64,000 bases of DNA from Roseomonas aeriglobus (GTDB taxonomy: Bacteria; Pseudomonadota; Alphaproteobacteria; Sphingomonadales; Sphingomonadaceae), in NCBI GenBank assembly GCA_016937575.1, contig JAFHKN010000002.1:620001-684000 (forward strand), written 5' to 3'. This document shows, piece by piece, positions 5,147-28,074 of the stretch. The number at the start of each line of letters is the position of its first letter. The stretch's first letter is position 1. The notes under the pieces were generated by a model. That model worked only from the letters and a program-made list of their open reading frames with translations, did not search any database and was not told the DNA's origin. The translations under genes and the position numbers were made by a program.

Positions 5147-5839
5147 TTACGCCGACGCTACCTCCGCGACATCCACCTTCACGCCCGGGCCCATCGACGA
5201 GCTCAGCGCGACCTTGCGCAGATACTTGCCCTTGGCGCCCGACGGCTTGGCCTTCACCACCGCGTCTACCAGCGCGTCGAAGTTCGCGCGCAGGTCCTCT
5301 GCCGGGAAGCTCGCCTTGCCCAGGCCGGCGTGGATGATGCCCGCCTTTTCGACGCGATATTCGATCTGGCCGCCCTTGGCCGCCTTGACGGCTTCGGCGA
5401 CGTTCATCGTGACGGTGCCCAGCTTCGGGTTCGGCATCAGGCCCTTCGGACCGAGAACCTTACCGAGACGACCGACGACGCCCATCATGTCCGGGGTCGC
5501 GATGCAGCGATCGAAGTCGATGGTGCCGCCCTGGACGGTTTCCATCAGGTCTTCGGCACCGACGACGTCGGCCCCTGCGGCGCGGGCTTCGTCAGCCTTC
5601 GCACCCTTGGCGAACACGCCGACGCGCACGGTCTTGCCGGTGCCCTTGGGCAGCGTGACGACGCCGCGGACCATCTGGTCGGCGTGGCGCGGATCGACGC
5701 CCAGGTTCAGCGCGACTTCGATCGTCTCGTCGAACTTGGCGGTGGCATTGGACTTCACGATGCCGATGGCTTCGTCGACGCCGTGGAGCTTCTCCGCGTC
5801 GACGGTCCAGGCCTTCTGCTTCTTGCTCAGCTTGGCCAT
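5147..5839 (-). CDS. rplA: 50S ribosomal protein L1
   Basis: Ribosomal L1-stalk protein, 230 residues, which binds 23S rRNA and, in many bacteria, represses its own operon. Diagnostic stretches are the Lys-rich start [36 protein letters not shown] (read in two parts), [16 protein letters not shown], and [20 protein letters not shown]. The start lies four bases after the rplK stop. The stop codon sits inside a small palindrome (GTCGGCGTTACGCCGAC). Confidence 0.97.
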
Positions 5840-13236: not shown

Positions 13237-13243
13237 GACCGGG

Positions 13244-15655
13244 TTACAGCCCGACTACACCGCCATCGGTGCGGGTGATGACGATCGTCGCCGAGCGGGG
13301 CCGCGCGGTCGATGCGGCGGTCTGGTTCGCCGGCCAGTTGCTGGTCGGGGCCGTCGCGGTGCCGTTTTCACCCGGATGCTGGATGTTGACGAACAAGGTG
13401 CGGCCGTCGGGCGAGGTATCGACGCCCGTCACCGCGGCCTCGTTCGGACCAACCAGGAAACGCTTCAGCGTATTCGCGCTCAGCGTCGCGCCGATGCGCG
13501 TGGCCTGGGTGGTGCCGCCGGTGTTCGTGATCGTCTTGGCCGCGGCGGTGCCGCCGTCGCCGACCGCGCCGGTACCGAGCGCCACCAGCATCTGGTTGTT
13601 GGTCACGTCGCGATAGGCGGTATCGTCGGTCTGGATGAACATCAGCGGGGTACCGGTGCCAGCCGGGCTGCTCGGACGGGCGAAGCGCAAACCTTCCGGA
13701 CCCGAGAAGTCGTTGGTCGCGGCGAGCCCCGAGATGTTGACGTTCGTCGCGTCGAGATCGGCACCCGCGGCGAATGCGTAGATATCCCAGGTGAAGGTCG
13801 TCGCATCGGGCAGGGTGCCCGTCTCGCGCAGGCGGACGATATGACCGTTGCGATTGCCGACCTGCGTGCTCGGCGCATCGACATAGGCACGCGGCGACGC
13901 CGGATTGGTGTTCGCCCCCGTCCGCGCGTCGTTGCCGTTCATCGCGATCAGCAACTCGCCGGTGGCCGCGCTGTTTGCGATCCACGACGCACGGTCGAGC
14001 GGAGTCGCCGCCAAAATGTCGCCCGCGATTCGCGCATGGGTCAGCACATCCGCCTGGTCGGTGAAAGCGAAGGTCGCGTTGGCCGCGTCGAGCCCGCCCG
14101 TACCGAACGTCAGGGGAACCCAGGTACCGGTGCCGTCCGCTGCAAACTTCGCGACATAAAGCGTTCCGGTGTCGAGATATTTGTCGCCGATCGCCATGCG
14201 GTCGGTTGCGGACGCATCCGCCACTGCAAAGACGGTGCTCGACACGAACTTGTAGAGATATTCGTTCTGCCCGGCGTCCGCCATGTAGACGGTCGGCTTG
14301 ATTCCGGCGGAAACCAGGAACTGCTGTACGCCCGAGTGCGCGAAGCGGCCGAGCGCCGTGCGCTTCCGGACGGTGGCGGCCTTGTCATAGGGGTCCATCT
14401 CGACGACCCAGCCGAACTGGTTGGGCTCGTTGCGATAGTCGGCGGTGGCGCCGGCACCGGTCGCCTGGGCATCCCAGCGGGCATAGAGGCTGCCAGCGGC
14501 CGCTGCGGTTTCCCAGCCGTACAGGCCAGCCGACGCGGTCACGCCGTAGCGGTTGAGCGCATAGACCTGCTTGGCCGTGCGCCGCGCATTGTCGGCCGAC
14601 GGGCGGCGGAAATAGCGAGCCCATTTCTCTTCGCTGGTCAGCGCGGTGCCCCAGCCGGTGGTGGTGAGGGCGGAATTGCCGATCGTTCCCCGACCCGCCG
14701 TGCCGTCGGCCGAGAACGCGGTCTGGAGCAGCGCGTTGCCGCGCACCGGGCCGTTGAAGACCACCGCCGACGACGGGGTGACGCGGCGGTTGTACGCGCT
14801 TGCGGTCACCGGGGCCCAGACGTTGCTGGCGTTCGCGGCGACTTCGACGACGCTCAGGCCATGAGCTTCGGTTTCCTTGACGACTTCGGCGGTCGGGCGG
14901 ACGCCGCCCGGCGCGGTCGGGCCGTTCGGGTGGAGGTATGCCTGGGTGATGCCTTCATGGTTTGTCGCCAGCAGGCCGCGCGCGCTGTTCGACACGTCGA
15001 TGCCGGTGCCGCTGGCGACCAGACCGAAATACAGGAAACCTGCACCGTTGTCGCCGAAACGGTTGGTGAAGTCGGTGTCCGCGCCGGTATTGCTGTACGC
15101 CGACACGCCGCTGGCGATCGGGTCGCCGGTCGCGATCAGCGTGGTGACGGTATAGCCTGCGGGGATCGTCACGCGGTCGTTGCGATTCTTGTCGACCGAG
15201 GTGAAGGTCAGCGTGTTGGCCGACGCGGTGATGTTGACGTCGATCGAACTGGCCTGGCCGGCGTTGTCGTTGGCGGTGAAGCGGATGATGATCGTGCTAG
15301 ACGCCGCCCCGCCGGGTACGATGAAGCTGGTGGTCAGCCCGGTCGTCGCCGACAGGCTGACCGGCGGGCCACTGACCTGGTTGAAGGTGGTCGAGGCGAC
15401 CGAACCGTTGTCGGTTGCCGTGCCGGTGATGGTCACCCGGGTGCCCGGTGCCGCGGTCGCCGGCGATGCGGTCGCAGTCACGGTCGGTACCGGATCGCTG
15501 CTGCCGCTCGACCCGCTGCCGCAAGCGGCGAGCAGCGAGCCGCCGACCATCACGGTCGCAGCGGTCGTCGCCGATCCGCGCAGCGCGTCGCGCCGGGAAT
15601 AGCGCCGCGCGATCAGATCGCCGAGGGTCGGGGCGGTGCGGGTCGGATCGGTCAT
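13244..15655 (-). CDS. PhoX-like (DUF839) Tat lipoprotein, probable pseudoenzyme
   Basis: An 803-residue protein with a Tat motif (YSRRDALRGSA) and a lipobox (LLAAC), then an Ig/PKD-like domain (about 60-150) and a DUF839/PhoX six-bladed propeller. PhoX enzymes are Ca/Fe alkaline phosphatases. Compared with its neighbour (15830-18286), most motif residues are changed: TCEEN became TSEEK, NCANG became NSALT, NHEG became AHSG, YMGDD became YMADA, and DRPEW became DRASW. Fold retention with loss of metal ligands suggests a non-catalytic role. ATG 15655 is chosen because it precedes the Tat signal closely and has AGGA upstream; a longer frame to 15739 lacks this. Confidence 0.85.
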   Translation of the reverse strand: MTDPTRTAPTLGDLIARRYSRRDALRGSATTAATVMVGGSLLAACGSGSSGSSDPVPTVTATASPATAAPGTRVTITGTATDNGSVASTTFNQVSGPPVSLSATTGLTTSFIVPGGAASSTIIIRFTANDNAGQASSIDVNITASANTLTFTSVDKNRNDRVTIPAGYTVTTLIATGDPIASGVSAYSNTGADTDFTNRFGDNGAGFLYFGLVASGTGIDVSNSARGLLATNHEGITQAYLHPNGPTAPGGVRPTAEVVKETEAHGLSVVEVAANASNVWAPVTASAYNRRVTPSSAVVFNGPVRGNALLQTAFSADGTAGRGTIGNSALTTTGWGTALTSEEKWARYFRRPSADNARRTAKQVYALNRYGVTASAGLYGWETAAAAGSLYARWDAQATGAGATADYRNEPNQFGWVVEMDPYDKAATVRKRTALGRFAHSGVQQFLVSAGIKPTVYMADAGQNEYLYKFVSSTVFAVADASATDRMAIGDKYLDTGTLYVAKFAADGTGTWVPLTFGTGGLDAANATFAFTDQADVLTHARIAGDILAATPLDRASWIANSAATGELLIAMNGNDARTGANTNPASPRAYVDAPSTQVGNRNGHIVRLRETGTLPDATTFTWDIYAFAAGADLDATNVNISGLAATNDFSGPEGLRFARPSSPAGTGTPLMFIQTDDTAYRDVTNNQMLVALGTGAVGDGGTAAAKTITNTGGTTQATRIGATLSANTLKRFLVGPNEAAVTGVDTSPDGRTLFVNIQHPGENGTATAPTSNWPANQTAASTARPRSATIVITRTDGGVVGL

Positions 15656-15777
15656 CGGAGGTCCTCGAACAAGCAATCGAAACGGGGCGGGTGTCACGCC
15701 AGGTCGCCGCTGCTTAGCGCGCGAACGACATTTTGCCACGCCTTTGTCGAACCGCTGCCCGAGGAATGCGGCGGTTT

Positions 15778-15809
15778 GCGGGCCGGCGCGCTACTCTGCA
15801 CCGGCCCGC
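15778..15809 (-). terminator. Probable terminator hairpin of the second PhoX-like gene
   Basis: GCGGGCCGG and CCGGCCCGC form a perfect 9-bp stem with a 14-base loop, about 20 bp beyond the stop of the upstream PhoX-like gene and before the start of the next one. Confidence 0.5.
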
Positions 15810-15829
15810 GTCCCCCTTCTACGCCGGGG

Positions 15830-18286
15830 TCAGAGCCCGACGATCCCGCCATCGGTGCGCTGGATGACGACCGTTGCCGAACGCGGGCGATTGCCCGGGG
15901 CGCTGCCCGACTGGCTGGCCGGCCAGTTGCTGGTGATGTTGGTCAGCGTGCCGTCCTCGCCCGGGTGCTGGATGTTGACGAACAGCGTGCGGCCATCGGG
16001 CGTCGAATCGACGCCGGTGATCTCGCACTGAACCGGGCCGACCAGGAAACGCTTCAGGCTTGTGCCCGGTGTCTTGCCGACGAAGGTCGTCGTCGTGGTG
16101 CTGGCCCCGGCTGCATTGAAATTCGTCACCGTCCGCGCCGCGCCGTCGCCGACCGTGCCGGGGATGGCCGCGAGCATCTGGTTGTTCGTCTGGTCGGTGA
16201 AGGCACCGTCGTCGGTCTGGATCCACAGTAGAGGATTGCCTTGGCCCGAGGCGTTCGAGGCGCGGCCGAACCACAGCCCGTCGGGCGAGGAGAAGTCGTT
16301 CGAGGCGTCGAGGTTCGACAGGTTGATGTTCTGCGCGTTCAGATCCGATCCGGCACCGAACGCGTAGATGTCCCAGCGGAAGGCGGTCGCTTCGGTCGTG
16401 TCACCGCTTTCGCGCAGGCGCAGGATGTGGCCATTGTGGTTGGCGTAGCTCAGGTTCGGCGCGTCCTGATACGACCGCGGGTTCGCCGGATCGGTGTTCG
16501 TGCTGGTACGACCCGAATTGTTGGTCAGCGTCAGGTACATCTCGCCCGTGACCGGATTGACCGCGGTCCATTCCGGCCGGTCCATCTTGGTTGCGCCGAC
16601 GCTGTCCGCGGCCAGGCGGCAATGGGTCAGCACGTCGGCCTGGTCGGCGAAGGGGTAGAGCGTGTTCGACGCCGTCAGCCCGTTCTGGCCAAACACCAGC
16701 GGCAGCCACTGACCCGACCCGTCGGCGTTGAACTTCGCGACGTACAGCGTGCCGGTATCGAGATATTTGTCGCCGGTCGCGAGTCGGTCGGTCGCGCTGG
16801 CGTCGGCAGCGCTCCATGCCGTCGCCGATACGAATTTGTAGAGATATTCGTTGCGTGCGTCGTCGCCCATGTACCAGGCAGGTTTGCGACCCGCGACGAA
16901 GGCGCCCGGCCAGCAGCCTTCATGGTTCATGCGGCCGAGCGCGGTGCGCTTGCGCGGGGTCGCGGTCGGATCATAGGGATCGATGTCAAGTACCCAGCCG
17001 AACTGGTTCGGTTCGTTGCGGAAATCCGCGGTTGCCGAGGCCCCGGTCGCCTGTGCGTCCCAGCGACGGTAGAGCGTGTTCGCCGCATCCGACGGCGTGA
17101 CCGTCGCCCAGCCGTAATTTCCCGATGACGAGGTGACGCCGTAGCGGGCAAGCGCCGTCACTTCCTTCGCGCTGCGCCGCGCATTGTCGGTGCCGGTCGG
17201 GCGGCGGAAATAGCCGGCCCAATTTTCCTCGCAGGTCAGCGACGTGCCCCAGGGCGTATAGCCGTTCGCACAATTGTTGATCGTCCCCCGGCCCGCGACG
17301 CCGGTCGGCGAATAGGCGGTGAACAACAGCGCGTTGCCGCGTGCCGGGCCCGAGAAGCTGGTCGGCGTGTTCGGCGTGATGCGGCGGTTGAGGCTGCCCG
17401 ACTGGACATAGCTCCAGGCGCCGGACGACGCTTGCGTCACTTCGACGATGCTGACGCCGTGCGCCTCGATCTCCTTCAGCGCCTCGGCCTCGGGGCGCGC
17501 ACCACCCGCCGACGTCGGGCCGGCGGGGTGGAGGTAGACCTGGACGATATTCTCGTGATTCATCACCAGCAGCCCGCGCGTGCTGCTGGCATCGTCGCGT
17601 CCTGCGCCGGTGGCGGTCAGGCCGAACCAGTGGAGCGCGTCATGCTGGTCGCCCGCACGGGTCGAAAAGCCCGTGTCGGTGCCGTCGTTCCGGTACGCCG
17701 CGGTCGCGCCCGAGATCGGGTCGCCGGTACGGTAGAGCACGCTGACGCTGTAGCCCGCGGGCACGGTCACGACGTCGTTCCTGTTCTTGGCGACCGCAGC
17801 GAAGCTGAGCGTGGCGGGCTGGATGTTGATCGTGGTGTCGGCGGTCGTCGTACCGCCCTTGTCGTCGGTCGCGCTGAAGCGGATGACGATCGGCGTCGTC
17901 GTCGTGACGCCCGGCGCGATGAAGCTGGTCGTGAGACCCGTCGTCGACGAGAGGGTAACGGCCGGGCCGCTGACCTGGGTGAAGCTGGTCGCAGCGATCG
18001 TGCCGTTGTCGGTGGCGGTCGCGGTCAGCGTGACGCGGCTGCCGCTCGAGGTCTGGCTGCTCTGGCCGACGCTGATCGTCGGGCGCGGATCGCTCGCGCC
18101 GATCTTGTCTTCGCCGCACGCCGCCAACGCCGCGCCGCCGAACACCGCCATCGCCGCCGCTGACGCACCGCCCCGCAGCGCATCGCGTCGCGAATAGCGC
18201 CGGTCGATCATGTCGCTGAGCGTCTCGCCACTGCTGCGGTTGGTGTCGACGTCGCCGTCGCTGTAGCCGAAATCGAACGAAGTCAT
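15830..18286 (-). CDS. PhoX-like (DUF839) Tat lipoprotein phosphatase
   Basis: An 818-residue paralogue of the gene downstream. It starts MTSFDFGYSDGD and carries a Tat motif (YSRRDALRGGA), a lipobox (ALAAC), an Ig/PKD-like domain (about 75-165) and a PhoX propeller. Characteristic PhoX motifs are intact: MNHENIVQVYLHP, NCANGYTPWGTSLTCEENW (about 330-352), RMNHEGCWPGAF, YMGDDARNEYLYKFV, MDRPEWTAVNP and LTLTNN. It is therefore expected to be a Ca/Fe-dependent phosphomonoesterase on the cell envelope or surface. ATG 18286 has GGGGGA upstream; the longer frame to 18442 reads intergenic DNA. The adjacent T2SS locus is a plausible export route. Confidence 0.9.
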   Translation of the reverse strand: MTSFDFGYSDGDVDTNRSSGETLSDMIDRRYSRRDALRGGASAAAMAVFGGAALAACGEDKIGASDPRPTISVGQSSQTSSGSRVTLTATATDNGTIAATSFTQVSGPAVTLSSTTGLTTSFIAPGVTTTTPIVIRFSATDDKGGTTTADTTINIQPATLSFAAVAKNRNDVVTVPAGYSVSVLYRTGDPISGATAAYRNDGTDTGFSTRAGDQHDALHWFGLTATGAGRDDASSTRGLLVMNHENIVQVYLHPAGPTSAGGARPEAEALKEIEAHGVSIVEVTQASSGAWSYVQSGSLNRRITPNTPTSFSGPARGNALLFTAYSPTGVAGRGTINNCANGYTPWGTSLTCEENWAGYFRRPTGTDNARRSAKEVTALARYGVTSSSGNYGWATVTPSDAANTLYRRWDAQATGASATADFRNEPNQFGWVLDIDPYDPTATPRKRTALGRMNHEGCWPGAFVAGRKPAWYMGDDARNEYLYKFVSATAWSAADASATDRLATGDKYLDTGTLYVAKFNADGSGQWLPLVFGQNGLTASNTLYPFADQADVLTHCRLAADSVGATKMDRPEWTAVNPVTGEMYLTLTNNSGRTSTNTDPANPRSYQDAPNLSYANHNGHILRLRESGDTTEATAFRWDIYAFGAGSDLNAQNINLSNLDASNDFSSPDGLWFGRASNASGQGNPLLWIQTDDGAFTDQTNNQMLAAIPGTVGDGAARTVTNFNAAGASTTTTTFVGKTPGTSLKRFLVGPVQCEITGVDSTPDGRTLFVNIQHPGEDGTLTNITSNWPASQSGSAPGNRPRSATVVIQRTDGGIVGL

Positions 18287-19424: not shown

Positions 19425-19843
19425 TCCGTGCCGAACGAACCGCCGTCGCCGCTGCTGCGCTGGTCGCCATCGCGACGCCCGCGCTCTTGCTCGGCATCGG
19501 TCGCGAGCCGGTCCCTGTGGCGCCGGCTGCTCCCGCGCTTCTCGCTGCTCGCTCGCCCGTGGCCGGCACCATCGTCTACACGCGCGACCTATTCGGCGGC
19601 GGCGGGGAGGGGGGCTCGATCGAGGACGCACCGCTTCCGGAAGGCGCCCCCCAGCTTGCCGGCATCGTCGGCCGCATCGGCGCCGACGCCGTCGCGATGG
19701 TCCGCACCGCTGATGGGCGCACGCGAACAATCGGCGTGGGGGAGAGCGTCGACGGCTGGACGCTGGAGTCGCTGGCGATCGATGCGGGGTATTTCACCCG
19801 CGGGGGGCAGAAGGCTCGCGTGCCGTTGCCGGCGGGGGAGTGA
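19415..19843 (+). CDS. GspC/PilP-like protein (accessory trio, gene 3)
   Basis: A 142-residue protein: N-terminal transmembrane or signal helix (about 7-28), Pro/Ala linker, and a beta-rich domain (about 80-142) with LAGIVGRIGADAVAMVRTA and TIGVGESVDGWTLESL, which fits the homology region of GspC that contacts the secretin N0 domain. Unlike the GspC at 22582 it has no PDZ domain. ATG 19415 overlaps the end of the previous gene; an ATG six bases later is also possible. The next gene, hicA, starts one base after the stop. Confidence 0.6.
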   Translation: MAMIRAERTAVAAAALVAIATPALLLGIGREPVPVAPAAPALLAARSPVAGTIVYTRDLFGGGGEGGSIEDAPLPEGAPQLAGIVGRIGADAVAMVRTADGRTRTIGVGESVDGWTLESLAIDAGYFTRGGQKARVPLPAGE

Positions 19844-19844
19844 A

Positions 19845-20033
19845 GTGAAGAGCCGCGATGTCATCGCTAGAATCGAAGCCGCGGGCTGGGTTCGCGTGCG
19901 GCAGGCCGGCAGCCATATTCAGTTCCGCCATCCCACGCGCCTCGGAACGGTCACGGTGCCCCATCCGAAATCCGATCTGGCGATCGGAACGCTCAAAAGC
20001 ATCGAGCGCCAGAGCGGTGTAGCGTTGCGATGA
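19845..20033 (+). CDS. hicA: HicA-type mRNA interferase toxin
   Basis: A 62-residue protein with the complete HicA fold: MKSRDVIARIEAAGW, then VRQAGSHIQFRHP with the catalytic His of the GSH motif, then VTVPHPKSDLAIGTLKSI. It would cleave mRNA when free of its antitoxin. It starts with GTG one base after the GspC-like stop, with GGGGGAG upstream, so it appears to be the last cistron of the trio. The gene for the antitoxin faces it from the other strand, which is unusual. Confidence 0.85.
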   Translation: MKSRDVIARIEAAGWVRVRQAGSHIQFRHPTRLGTVTVPHPKSDLAIGTLKSIERQSGVALR

Positions 20034-20036
20034 TCT

Positions 20037-20429
20037 TCAGCCGATCCGCCGCGCGGCAAGTTCGTGTCGTGCAGCGTCGGCGAGAAAGCCCGAACGATTC
20101 TTGGCAACGCGGTCGATCGCGGCAACCAGTCCTTCGTCGAGCGTGATGTTCAAACGCACCGATCGGCCCGGCCGCTCGGCACGCACCAGTATTCGGGCGA
20201 CCTCGGTCACCTCCGGATCGACTGCGAGCGTATCGAGCGGTGTCGGATCGGCGATCGTGTCGCCATATTCGGCTGCGACGATCAAATGGCCGGCCAAGGC
20301 TTCCTCAGCGTTCATCGCCGCCTCCTGCACGGTGGCGCCTGCGGACACGCAGCCGGGGACGTCGGGAAAGAACACGCTGTAGCCATCGTCCGCGCGCTCG
20401 ATGATGGCAGGATAAAGTACCATAGGCAT
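20037..20429 (-). CDS. hicB: HicB-type antitoxin with ribbon-helix-helix DNA-binding tail
   Basis: A 130-residue antitoxin. The N-terminal HicB domain (about 1-65) has YPAIIERADDGYSVFFPDVP, GCVSAGATVQEAAMNAEEAL and HLIVAAEYGD. The C-terminus (about 90-125, SVRLNITLDEGLVAAIDRVA) is a ribbon-helix-helix that should bind the palindrome overlapping its start. The hicA and hicB stops are three bases apart and converge, whereas classical hicAB pairs run hicA-hicB on one strand. Start may be either Met (20429 or 20423). Confidence 0.85.
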   Translation of the reverse strand: MPMVLYPAIIERADDGYSVFFPDVPGCVSAGATVQEAAMNAEEALAGHLIVAAEYGDTIADPTPLDTLAVDPEVTEVARILVRAERPGRSVRLNITLDEGLVAAIDRVAKNRSGFLADAARHELAARRIG

Positions 20430-22581: not shown

Positions 22582-23373
22582 CTAGCGCATCGGGACGGTC
22601 ACGGTCACCGACCGGCCGTTCCGCAAGATCTGGATCTGGGCCGTCCCGCTCGCCTGCGCGCCCGCGATCGCCGCACGCGCGGCGTCGGGGGAGGTGAGGG
22701 GACTGCCGTTCAACTGCTGGATGACGTCGCCCTGCTGCAGCCCGGCCGGAGCGCCGGCACCGATGCGATAGCCGCCCTCGGTCGGCGTCGCGCCGAGCCG
22801 CTGGAGCATCGCTTCGGGCGTCGGGCTGGTCGGCGCGGGCGGGGCGGCGGCAGTGACGGCATTGCCCGCGGGTGCGGCCGGTGCGGCACCCGCAGCGGGG
22901 GTGGCGCCAGGCGTCGCGAAGGGGTCGGGGAAGGCGAGGAATTCGCTACGCCCGCCGTTGTTCAGAATGACGCGGTTGATTTGAATGGCGCTGATCGTCG
23001 CACCGCCGACGGCCTCGCCGACCTTGAAGGGTTTCATCGCGTCGCTGCCCGACTGGATATAGGCGATCGACAGCTCGGCGGGACGCGCGAAGACGATGCC
23101 CTTCAACGTCAGTTGCAGCGTCGTCGGCGTCGCACTGTCGGCATCCGCCCCGGCGCGGCCGAAGGGCGCCAGTGCGAGCGTGGGGCCAAGATCCGGCACC
23201 GGCGGCGCCGTGCGCATCGGCGGCACGGTGATCGCCCCGACATCGGCATGACCGCCCAGCCGCCATGTCAGGCCGGCGAGCGCGAAGGCGACCGACACGA
23301 CCACCGCGCCGGTGAACACGTTCAGCACGATTCGCTGGCGATAGGGGGTAAGGTCGAACCGGCGGAGGATCAT
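22582..23373 (-). CDS. gspC: Type II secretion system protein C with PDZ domain
   Basis: Inner-membrane clamp protein of 263 residues that links the inner-membrane platform to GspD. One transmembrane helix (about 17-38), a homology region (about 75-145: LTLKGIVFARPAELSIAYIQ, FKVGEAVGGATISAI), an Ala/Pro linker, and a C-terminal PDZ domain (about 190-263: GYRIGAGAPAGLQQGDVIQQ, LNGSPLTSPD). The ATG overlaps the gspI stop (ATGA). Confidence 0.92.
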   Translation of the reverse strand: MILRRFDLTPYRQRIVLNVFTGAVVVSVAFALAGLTWRLGGHADVGAITVPPMRTAPPVPDLGPTLALAPFGRAGADADSATPTTLQLTLKGIVFARPAELSIAYIQSGSDAMKPFKVGEAVGGATISAIQINRVILNNGGRSEFLAFPDPFATPGATPAAGAAPAAPAGNAVTAAAPPAPTSPTPEAMLQRLGATPTEGGYRIGAGAPAGLQQGDVIQQLNGSPLTSPDAARAAIAGAQASGTAQIQILRNGRSVTVTVPMR

Positions 23374-23756
23374 CGCCGCCCCTCTTGCGTCACCGGCTCG
23401 CCCGTGTCGAGGAATCCGTCGAGCGAGGCGGTCGGCGAGGTTTGGCCCTCCGCATAGACATCGACCCGGACGCGGGCGATCGCGGGGTCGGCGGTGGCCC
23501 GTTGCACCGTGCGGACCAGCCAGTTGGTGTCGAGCATCGTCACCCGTTCGGGCGCGGGAATGCCGGCGTTGAGTTCGGTCAGCCGATTCTCCGCCACCCA
23601 CATCGCAGCCGAGCGCTGCTCCATCGCGCGGGTCGAATCGATATGCTGCTCGACCGCGCCGACCAGACCCACCGTCGCCACCGCCAGCACCGCAAGCGCG
23701 ACCAGCGCCTCGATCAGCGAGAAGCCGTCGGTGTCGGTCCCCCCCAAATGCGTCAC
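23370..23756 (-). CDS. gspI: Type II secretion minor pseudopilin I
   Basis: A 128-residue minor pseudopilin. The prepilin site is DTDG|FSLIEALVALAVLAV with Glu at mature position 5, after an 11-residue leader. The mature domain includes AAMWVAENRLTELNAG. It forms the pseudopilus tip with GspJ and GspK. The start overlaps the gspH stop and the stop overlaps the gspC start. Confidence 0.93.
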   Translation of the reverse strand: MTHLGGTDTDGFSLIEALVALAVLAVATVGLVGAVEQHIDSTRAMEQRSAAMWVAENRLTELNAGIPAPERVTMLDTNWLVRTVQRATADPAIARVRVDVYAEGQTSPTASLDGFLDTGEPVTQEGRR

Positions 23757-24355
23757 GTCGGCTGCGCTCCGGCGCGGGTGACGGTGGAGGTCAGTCCGTC
23801 GTAGCGCACGACCCAGGTCTGGTCACCGCTGACGAGCGTCGCGGTCAGCGGCTTCGACAGGCCATCGACGCCGAGCACCAGCGGAGGCGGCTGGTCGAGC
23901 GTCATCGCGACGCCACCGGGAAGGGCGTGGTAATCGAGTTTCGGCGTGCCCTTAGGGATGACACCGTCCGACGCGACTTTGGCAAAGCCATAGCCGCTGT
24001 CGTCGATCGTCAGCGCGACCATCCGGTCGCCCAGCATCGCGTCATCGCCCGCCGCCTCCAGCCGGGTGGCGAAGCGGCGGGCTTCCGATTCGACCGACGG
24101 CGCGCGGGTGGCCGACCCGATCGCCAACGCAATCCCGCCCGAGGCGATGCCGATGATCGCGAGGACGATCAGCATCTCGACCAGGGTCATGCCGGCGTCA
24201 GATCCTCCCCGGCACGGGGAGGGGGACCGCCCGCGAAGCGGGTGGTGGAGGGGGCGGGCGGCAACCGAGTTGCTCGCGGAGGTCCCCCTCCACCACGCTG
24301 CGCGTGGTCCCCCTCCCCGTGCCGGGGAGGATGCGGAGGCCACCCCTCCAATCAC
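23753..24355 (-). CDS. gspH: Type II secretion minor pseudopilin H with repeat-derived leader
   Basis: A 200-residue pre-protein. The start is a GTG overlapping the gspG stop (GTGA). The pseudopilin site is SDAG|MTLVEMLIVLAIIG with Glu 5, but it is 55 residues from the start, while prepilin leaders are normally 6-25. Residues 9-51 are the in-frame translation of a 129-bp palindromic repeat. Without it the leader would be MIGGVASASDAG. No ATG, GTG or TTG lies in frame between the repeat and the cleavage site. Whether the long leader is processed, or translation starts elsewhere, is open. The mature domain is about 145 residues, normal for GspH. Confidence 0.85.
   Translation of the reverse strand: MIGGVASASSPARGGGPRAAWWRGTSASNSVAARPLHHPLRGRSPSPCRGGSDAGMTLVEMLIVLAIIGIASGGIALAIGSATRAPSVESEARRFATRLEAAGDDAMLGDRMVALTIDDSGYGFAKVASDGVIPKGTPKLDYHALPGGVAMTLDQPPPLVLGVDGLSKPLTATLVSGDQTWVVRYDGLTSTVTRAGAQPT
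24203..24331. repeat. 129-bp palindromic repeat inside the gspH leader
   Basis: Starts TCCTCCCCGGCACGGGGA and ends with its reverse complement, with inner segments GGGGGACC...GTGGTGGAGGGG typical of the same family at 34648 and 35661. Its length is exactly 43 codons and it is open in the gspH frame. Confidence 0.85.
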
Positions 24356-24831
24356 CGCCCGGCCACGATATCCGCATCGAGCCCTTCGCCGCCCTCGGCG
24401 CCGTCCTTGCCCAGGCTTTTCAGCGAAAATCCGCCCGGTGCCGGCGAGACATAGACATAATCCCGGCCCCAGGCGTCCTTGGGCGGCTGGCCGACATAGC
24501 CTTCGGGGTTCCAGTTGCTCGGGATCGGGGCGGTCGTCGGCTTTTCGGCCAGCGCCTTCAGCCCCTGCGCGGTCGACGGATAGTCGCCATTGTCCAGGCG
24601 ATACATCTTCAGCGCCGCGCTGATCGTGCGCATGTCGGTGGTCGTGGTCGTCACGCGGGCCTGGTCGGGCCGGCTGAGGATGCCGGTGCTGACGATCATC
24701 CCGGCGATGACCGCAATGATGACCAGCACGACGATCATCTCGACCAGGGTCACGCCCTCATCGTTCGGGCGCTTGCGGCGGCGCGCCGCGGCTGCCACGG
24801 TGTCACGAAACTGTCGGAAAAGAGTGCGCAT
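24352..24831 (-). CDS. gspG: Type II secretion major pseudopilin G
   Basis: Major pseudopilin, 159 residues. Leader of 28 residues, basic (RRRKRPNDEG), then G|VTLVEMIVVLVIIAVIAGM with Glu 5. The mature domain has the family signature NGDYPSTAQGLKAL, then NPEGYVGQPPKDAWGRDYVY, and the C-terminal Ca-binding loop AEGGEGLDADI. An alternative ATG at 24843 abuts the ATG of the divergent gspL (24842); 24831 is chosen to avoid this overlap, but neither has a strong Shine-Dalgarno. Confidence 0.92.
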   Translation of the reverse strand: MRTLFRQFRDTVAAAARRRKRPNDEGVTLVEMIVVLVIIAVIAGMIVSTGILSRPDQARVTTTTTDMRTISAALKMYRLDNGDYPSTAQGLKALAEKPTTAPIPSNWNPEGYVGQPPKDAWGRDYVYVSPAPGGFSLKSLGKDGAEGGEGLDADIVAGR

Positions 24832-24841
24832 TCGCTCGCCC

Positions 24842-25969
24842 ATGATTATCACGCGTGACACCCATGTTACAGTCGAAGCGGCCCCGCACGCCAGCCTCGA
24901 CGCATCCGGCCCGGCGGGCGTCTGGACGCTGGCGGGCGAGGCGCTGGTCGCGTCGGATGCCGATGGGCCCGCTACCGTACTCGTGCCCAACGAAGCGGTT
25001 CGCCTTTTGGCGGTCGATCTGCCGCTGCCGACACGCGCCAGGCGGCTGGCTGCGCTGCCGTTCGCGGTCGAGGAACTGATCGCCGAGCCGATCGACAGCG
25101 TGCATCTGGCGCTGGGCATCGAACTCAGCCCCAAACGCTATCTCGTCGGCGTCGTCCGCCACGACCGGATGGCGGAATGGATCGCTCGGATAGAGGCGGA
25201 GGGCCTTGGTCACGCAGCGCTGGTCCCCGACGCGCTCGCGCTGCCCCAGCCGGCGGCGGGGGAATGGGCGGTCGAACTGGGCGCGACCCGCGCACTGGTC
25301 CGCGCTGGCGACGGCACCGGCTTTGCGATCCCCGCGGCCCTGCTGCGCACCGCTTGGGATGCCGCGGGCCAGCCGCGGACGATCGCGTACGGCACCGCAC
25401 TGCCGGCCGACATGACCGACAGCACGGACGCACTGGCGCTCGATCCGCTCGCCCGGCGGCTGCTCGCCCCGGCGCTCGACCTGCGCCAGGGGATCTATGC
25501 CGTGCGCCGGACGGGGTCGGGGTTCTGGCGCAAACTCGCGACGGTCGCCGTGCTCGGCCTGCTCGCCCATGTCGTGATCGCCGCGCTGGACACGCTGGCA
25601 CTGCGCAACATCGCCAATGCCCGCGTGGCCGAGACGCGCGAACTGGTCGCTACCAGAGCCCCCGGGACGGCGCTGCCGGAGGAGGGCCTGGCCGGCGCCG
25701 TCACCGACCTGTTGCCGCGACCTGGCGCCGGGGGCGGGGCCAACCCGTTCCTCGGTGCCGCCGCCCGCCTGTCGGCCGCGCTCACCCCGCTCGGCGCCGA
25801 TTTGTCCGTCCGCACGATGCGGACCGAAGGCACGTCGCTGATCGTCGATCTCGACAGCACCGACCCCGGCTTCGCCGGCCGGGTCCGCACCACCCTGTCG
25901 AGCGGCGGAATTGACGCCGCGGTCGCGCCGATCGATGGCGGCGTGCGCATCACGAGCCCGCTGGCATGA
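24842..25969 (+). CDS. gspL: Type II secretion system protein L
   Basis: A 375-residue inner-membrane platform protein that recruits the GspE ATPase. The actin-like cytoplasmic domain (about 1-215) contains VLVPNEAVRLLAVDLPLP and AALPFAVEELIAEPIDSVH; a transmembrane helix lies at about 228-246 (VAVLGLLAHVVIAAL); a periplasmic ferredoxin-like domain ends the protein. It starts the rightward L-M-E-F block and is divergent from gspG with essentially no spacer, so promoters for each must lie within the other gene. Confidence 0.9.
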   Translation: MIITRDTHVTVEAAPHASLDASGPAGVWTLAGEALVASDADGPATVLVPNEAVRLLAVDLPLPTRARRLAALPFAVEELIAEPIDSVHLALGIELSPKRYLVGVVRHDRMAEWIARIEAEGLGHAALVPDALALPQPAAGEWAVELGATRALVRAGDGTGFAIPAALLRTAWDAAGQPRTIAYGTALPADMTDSTDALALDPLARRLLAPALDLRQGIYAVRRTGSGFWRKLATVAVLGLLAHVVIAALDTLALRNIANARVAETRELVATRAPGTALPEEGLAGAVTDLLPRPGAGGGANPFLGAAARLSAALTPLGADLSVRTMRTEGTSLIVDLDSTDPGFAGRVRTTLSSGGIDAAVAPIDGGVRITSPLA

Positions 25970-27950: not shown

Positions 27951-28074
27951 CAATCCTCCCCTGCCAGGGGAGGGGGCATCGCGTAGCGATGACGGAGGGA
28001 TGTCCCCGTCTCGATAGCGCGACACCCCTCCGTCAGGCCTGCGGCCGGCCACCTCCCCTTGCAGGGGAGGATTG
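27951..28074. repeat. Palindromic repeat filling the gspE-gspF gap
   Basis: Begins at the first base after the gspE stop (CAATCCTCCCCTGCCAGGGG) and ends CAGGGGAGGATTG three bases before the gspF ATG. Same family as 39106-39230: both contain an internal ACACCCCTCCGTC segment. Its last arm provides the gspF Shine-Dalgarno. Confidence 0.85.

Follow-up and report, generated by a model that had tools for sequence, protein, structure and literature searches.

Palindromic repeats lie in frame within the prepilin leaders of minor pseudopilins and may be removed with them

The gene for the minor pseudopilin GspH in the 64,000-nucleotide stretch of the Roseomonas aeriglobus genome analysed here (the window) carries a palindromic repeat between its start codon and its predicted prepilin peptidase site. 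Comparison of this locus with those of relatives leads us to consider it probable, at about 0.76, that the repeat is translated as part of the cytoplasmic leader of GspH and cut off by prepilin peptidase. If prepilin leaders are permissive sites, repeated insertions are to be expected in gspH and gspI of related bacteria, and such insertions are found. The data suggest that stray repeats can persist without damage in a prepilin leader that is cut off.

The gspH reading frame (23753–24355, minus strand) encodes a precursor of 200 aa from a GTG, with the mature part beginning at M56. The GTG (24355–24353) overlaps the TGA stop of gspG (24354–24352), so that the two share the GTGA at 24352–24355 on the minus strand. 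The upstream partner gspG encodes the major pseudopilin (24352–24858, minus strand, start coordinate approximate; TIGR01710, E 1.2e-42, above cut-off), and gspI, the gene of the next minor pseudopilin, lies downstream (23370–23756, minus strand) and has a leader without a repeat in the window. Within gspH, eight ordinary codons are followed by 43 repeat codons, then by S-D-A-G and by M-T-L-V-E-M. The leader part before the repeat (about codons 2–8; 24333–24352, minus strand) is poorly conserved with respect to the closely related locus L078. The repeat itself, which has no strand of its own, spans 24202–24332 and supplies codons 9–51 (24331–24203); its outer arms form a perfect inverted repeat of 27 nt (24202–24228 with 24306–24332; hairpin score 27), and the folding energy of 24191–24350 is –131 kcal/mol. 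The leader ends with S52-D-A-G55, which together with the first mature codon M56 occupies 24188–24202 on the minus strand and places the predicted prepilin peptidase site between G55 and M56 (24193/24190). Gly(–1), Glu(+5) and a hydrophobic stretch, the features of a class III signal, are all present, and Pfam N_methyl matches residues 53–75 (23.9 bits versus a cut-off of 21.2). We call the protein GspH from the place of its gene between gspG and gspI and from its best NCBIfam match, TIGR01708 (E 2.3e-16; 60.3 bits, below the cut-off of 80). The genome gives two matches to PF01478, the family of prepilin peptidases. Ahead of M56, an in-frame ATG, GTG or TTG is found only at codons 1 and 5, which precede the repeat.

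The initial annotation had placed a GTG start over the gspG stop, a cleavage site after 55 residues, and exactly one palindromic repeat of 43 open codons at residues 9–51; all of these coordinates proved correct. It had also held a 55-residue leader to be far above the usual length. This holds in comparison with repeat-free closer relatives, whose leaders are mostly about 9–19 aa (some others reach about 30), but less well within the operon, where long leaders are less odd because that of GspG itself measures about 26–30 aa, judging by its translation and the position of its motif. Removal of the repeat on paper, as had been proposed, leaves a 12-residue leader that fits the range of repeat-free closer relatives. 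An Rfam scan of the window found nothing beyond a tRNA at the gathering threshold. Elsewhere in the window, the region 13241–18043 holds two paralogous stretches in tandem, spaced by about 2.59 kb and 73–85% alike in blocks, and a small gene pair adjoins gspD (19843–20429); from the ORF translations we take this pair to resemble hicA-hicB. Another palindromic repeat, not coding, lies between gspE and gspF (27951–28074).

The repeat in gspH belongs to a dispersed family. Searched against its own genome, it gave 89 matches with both strands counted, and 43 repeat places were examined, one of them, on contig C6, probably due to assembly redundancy. This contig (L006) is 99.7% identical to the truB region of contig C2 (L004) over 3134 nt, with 7 gap openings, and its copy of that region is probably redundant. 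Match lengths are mostly 123–136 nt, some being partial, and 18 of the 43 are multiples of three. Copies of the family tend to have open frames: the 34 that are at least 110 nt long have a mean of 5.06 open frames each versus 3.79 in shuffles, and 15 of them are open in all six. Dinucleotide shuffles of the window copy leave all six frames open in 19% of cases, and about 1 length in 3 is divisible by three by chance; the open frame of the single gspH copy is therefore unremarkable. The termini of the window repeat are ATCC/GGAT. At its edges, a search for a target site duplication returned only chance-like 5-nt candidates, none convincing, and a search of the genome for a mobilising enzyme gave one match to a Y1 transposase (PF01797), on contig C4. 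The family also occurs on plasmids, in 16 of 72,556 records (Sphingomonas 12, Sphingobium 3, Novosphingobium 1).

Copies of the same family lie in frame inside murD, truB, gluQ, ligD and a Y-family polymerase gene of this genome (L022 370–2184, L004 1099–2712, L009 1122–2537, L026 1–2328 and L029 12–2423, respectively, all on the minus strand), as established by reading ten repeat-spanning frames from nine places by eye. The first four genes are named above NCBIfam cut-offs and the fifth by Pfam IMS; we take the last, with its Y-family polymerase domains, to be imuB-like. Its frame also holds the peptide APAKAGAQ, which resembles a second repeat family. The insert stands at residue 48 in the murD product and at residue 155 in that of truB. 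At E 1e-30 or better murD has one match in the genome, and truB has two matches, the second of which lies on the redundant contig C6 and is interrupted by a stop. Aligned relatives have orthologues without the insert, for murD in L284–L287 and for truB in L298. These copies show that the family is compatible with being translated, as they lie in genes whose full product could not be restored by a start further downstream.

Since one locus alone is weak evidence, we compared 182 distinct gspG–gspH junctions. With GspG used as bait, matches were obtained in 47 of 61 genomes and in 279 of 290 genomes of the genus, the window's own genome being in both sets, and at 71 loci from named genomes; besides the loci returned directly, 100 further regions were taken, so that the junctions represent a subset of the matching genomes. 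From 228 junction rows, one without a prepilin motif (L139) was dropped and duplicates were merged to give the 182, among which L031 is the window's own; seven distant rows were excluded from the tree, family, length and Gly counts, leaving 175. In L078 (MAG; gspG 93.8% identical at the nucleotide level) the same repeat stands in the same place; rather than revealing an alternative conserved start, this relative keeps the same GTG and the same 55-residue leader. A GTG at –1 is common to the window, L078, L079, L151, L152 and L153. In L079 (Leaf33) the end of the window repeat is present and the assembly has an N run at about 5535–5555; hairpins may break assemblies at the gspG/gspH junction. 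L152 and L153 carry repeats related to that of the window. The repeat-free allele sought among these junctions was found, its nearest representative being L151 (GspG identity 72%), with a GTG leader of 14 aa. The initial proposal that a mobile repeat sits within a secretion signal and was kept since its length kept the frame gains support from this repeat-free allele, from the shared insert of L078 and from the 182 junctions as a set. Two further peculiarities were seen at the gspH start: the peptide around the cleavage site is duplicated in L263, L272 and L243 (such as GFTPVRRSAEHGFTL), and the repeat-free gspH of L082, L084 and L087 has no ATG, GTG or TTG from the gspG end to the cleavage site, only a CTG overlapping the gspG stop.

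The repeat in the gspH leader is real but not singular, being one of 29 hairpins at the 182 gspG/gspH junctions, next to 39 at the 182 gspH/gspI junctions. Hairpins, called at thresholds of our own choice, are also frequent at gspE/gspF (41/83 where these genes run opposite to gspG, 9/37 where they are on the same strand) and rare at gspM/gspE (1/100); strong ones (score at least 17) fall inside aligned gene bodies in 2 of 149 cases. The 109 hairpins from the three junctions gspG/gspH, gspH/gspI and gspE/gspF cluster into 10 families and 9 singletons, with the window's family represented 4, 10 and 20 times, respectively. Translations of other junction families include HSRAGGNP, SSRRKPGS or HPGLVPGS, and in several relatives CGTC stands at the start of the junction repeat. 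On a GspG-H-I tree, the minimum numbers of changes between hairpin and no hairpin at the three junctions are 21, 27 and 21, with gains and losses pooled. A site-specific role at the major/minor subunit boundary was considered and rejected as the main cause, since gspH/gspI has hairpins about as often and gspE/gspF more often.

If translation began behind the repeat, the upstream frame would be free to drift, as at the non-coding gspE/gspF junction. The frame is open through the hairpin in 29/29 cases at gspG/gspH and in 39/39 at gspH/gspI, compared with 23/50 at gspE/gspF. The latter total comprises 16/41 hairpins in the arrangement opposite to gspG and 7/9 in the same-strand arrangement (37 loci), which was added after the opposite-strand set (83 loci); several of the nine come from close relatives, the control is weaker in this distant clade, and its result lowered our confidence in translation of the leader repeat from 0.78 to 0.76. 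When cases sharing both a repeat family and a nearest repeat-free sibling were counted as one group, which only approximates independent events, open groups numbered 15/15 and 24/24 at the two prepilin junctions versus 10/22 at gspE/gspF (Fisher p 3.5e-4 and 1.7e-5); this collapsed control uses the 41-case set, and a group counts as open if any member is. Among the 175 loci, without a hairpin being required, 44 gspG/gspH junctions measure at least 100 nt, and in 42 of them the frame is open from close to the gspG stop. The two exceptions, L182 and L197, have no called hairpin and count against translation from upstream.

Lengths follow a similar pattern. The difference to the nearest repeat-free sibling is divisible by three in 39/39 gspH/gspI cases (collapsed 24/24, p 3.5e-12) and in 24/29 gspG/gspH cases (collapsed 11/15, p 0.0018), five being out of step, as against 20/41 at gspE/gspF (collapsed 10/22, p 0.16), where siblings were allowed spacers of up to 400 nt. 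Across the 68 inserts, stops occur in 50 of the 136 other sense frames and in none of the 68 used ones. We also considered that the frame might be picked for positive charge, following the positive-inside rule, and rejected this (mean 3.13 in the used frame versus 3.33 in the others; rank 1.07, with 1 expected by chance). An ATG, GTG or TTG is present upstream of the hairpin in 39/39 gspH/gspI cases, 11 of which have none inside or after it, and in 21/29 gspG/gspH cases, seven of which, the window included, have none inside or after it. The remaining eight (the L080–L095 clade) offer only CTG upstream but have ATG, GTG or TTG inside the hairpin; these eight cases and the five with out-of-step lengths speak against a translated repeat, and the gspH start may have moved in them.

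Gly(–1), although not a requirement of the scan, was present in 29/29 repeat-bearing and 146/146 other loci (L139, which has no prepilin motif, having been dropped beforehand), while positions –2 to –6 vary. In mature GspH the window and L078 are separated by 38 synonymous and 4 non-synonymous changes (dN/dS 0.03; versus L079 the value is 0.13). The repeat has 3 and 9, a dN/dS of about 1.25, with changes spread 4/4/4 over the codon positions, so its peptide looks unconstrained except for staying open; the L078 repeat has stops in both unused sense frames and none in the used one. The description of the repeat as 'domesticated' finds no support in these values: a ratio of about 1.25 from 12 changes indicates a sequence that is tolerated rather than selected.

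Several other explanations of these observations can be weighed. Translation could start at ATG56 (+1), with the GGGGAGG that the repeat end supplies 13 nt before it as ribosome binding site; the repeat would then be untranslated and GspH would need no processing. The presence of that motif makes such a start conceivable, the +1 codon is ATG in 20/29 repeat-bearing gspG/gspH loci, 36 of the 120 public GspH relatives among the matches listed, of 313, are annotated from the +1 Met without a leader, and many N-terminal REPs may be extragenic, with a downstream start possible, according to excerpts of PMC3733652. We nevertheless hold it to be distinctly unlikely, because under it neither the upstream frame nor Gly(–1) should be constrained, yet both are kept in 29/29, and because it leaves gspI, with its 39 of 39 open frames and lengths in multiples of three, unexplained. 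A public protein, P0009, speaks for a translated repeat: its leader of 53 aa, which follows an ATG, looks in sequence like a repeat of this kind. Even less can be said for a decaying gspH damaged by the insertion: its family score under the NCBIfam cut-off would fit, but purifying values of dN/dS in the mature part (0.03 and 0.13) make decay hardly credible.

Translation could also be a side effect of a hairpin kept mainly as an RNA element of the operon that sets the ratio of GspG to GspH and GspI, a view that is compatible with a translated leader. The scarcity of strong hairpins inside gene bodies and their preference for junctions other than gspM/gspE agree with it, and REPs have been proposed to stabilise mRNA (excerpts of PMC3733652). 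The major/minor boundary is not preferred over gspH/gspI or gspE/gspF, however, and most relatives do without a hairpin; we regard an RNA role as a rather unlikely main reason for its retention. Finally, the open frame might be a coincidence of a GC-rich, stop-poor repeat, as the shuffles, the mean of open frames in the 34 copies and the 7/9 open control junctions of the distant clade would allow. Against this, stops are common in the unused sense frames, fewer than half of the gspE/gspF hairpins are open, and lengths that keep step in 39 of 39 cases do not arise by chance; we consider coincidence very improbable.

Translation of the repeat within a removable leader would account for these data as follows. 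A dispersed palindromic repeat would have inserted between the gspH start codon and the cleavage site. As the gspG stop and that start codon overlap, an insertion would be viable only if it were in frame and free of stops, and the frame statistics point to only such insertions having left gspH working. Ribosomes would read through the repeat to yield a precursor with a 55-residue leader. Prepilin leaders vary in length, stay in the cytoplasm and are cut after Gly or Ala by prepilin peptidase (PMC10191384, in excerpt); given the intact motif, the GspH leader would likewise lie on the cytoplasmic side and be cut after Gly55, which would leave mature GspH unchanged. Such tolerance may be the reason for recurrent insertions. 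As inserts would be erased at the protein level when the leader is cut off, unrelated repeat families could repeatedly colonise the coding sequence of minor pseudopilins. Whether prepilin leaders are a general safe harbour for unrelated mobile repeats, whose hairpins then tune the major/minor subunit ratio, is a tentative extension that we rate as doubtful.

The analysis names a protein site from which the product of inserted mobile DNA could be removed once translated, and offers an explanation for unusually long prepilin leaders. It also provides a natural series of leaders, very different in length and sequence, for testing the tolerance of prepilin peptidase. Gene models often drop such leaders, as they do for 36 of the 120 relatives listed, which makes pseudopilins appear unprocessed. 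The frame statistics further offer a test for the translation of N-terminal repeats, a question that the excerpts of PMC3733652 leave undecided.

In the mostly open-access literature, no description of repeats in prepilin leaders was found among the matches listed; excerpts of PMC4741004 do not describe such repeats, and the strings pilin, pilus, leader and gsp are absent from the main text of PMC3733652. Long leaders as such are known: leader length varies, and much longer leaders occur in type IVb and Streptococcus sanguinis pilins, for which, unlike the present case, the excerpts of PMC10191384 describe no repeat origin. Intragenic REPs have been reported in tRNA pseudouridine synthase B genes of S. 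maltophilia, E. litoralis and S. alaskensis, in tRNA synthetases and in DNA ligase (PMC3733652, in excerpt), and the truB, gluQ and ligD cases described here fit these targets. In contrast to GTAG/CGTC REPs, the window repeat bears neither tag, although some relatives' junction repeats begin with CGTC; and where the same source, as far as excerpted, deems many N-terminal REPs perhaps untranslated, the frame statistics argue the opposite for gspH and gspI. The palindromic elements of Rickettsia (RPEs) and Wolbachia, of about 100–150 bp, lie in preexisting ORFs, housekeeping genes included, with the frame intact (PMC3767692 and PMC10969869, in excerpt). Compared with them by description, the window repeat is likewise dispersed and in frame in intact conserved ORFs that have repeat-free orthologues. 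It differs in occurring in other bacteria and in that the recurrent target is a leader expected to be removed rather than a retained part of the protein. In-frame intragenic repeats are thus known from RPEs and REPs, and what appears to be new, as judged from genome sequences, is the recurrent use of prepilin leaders.
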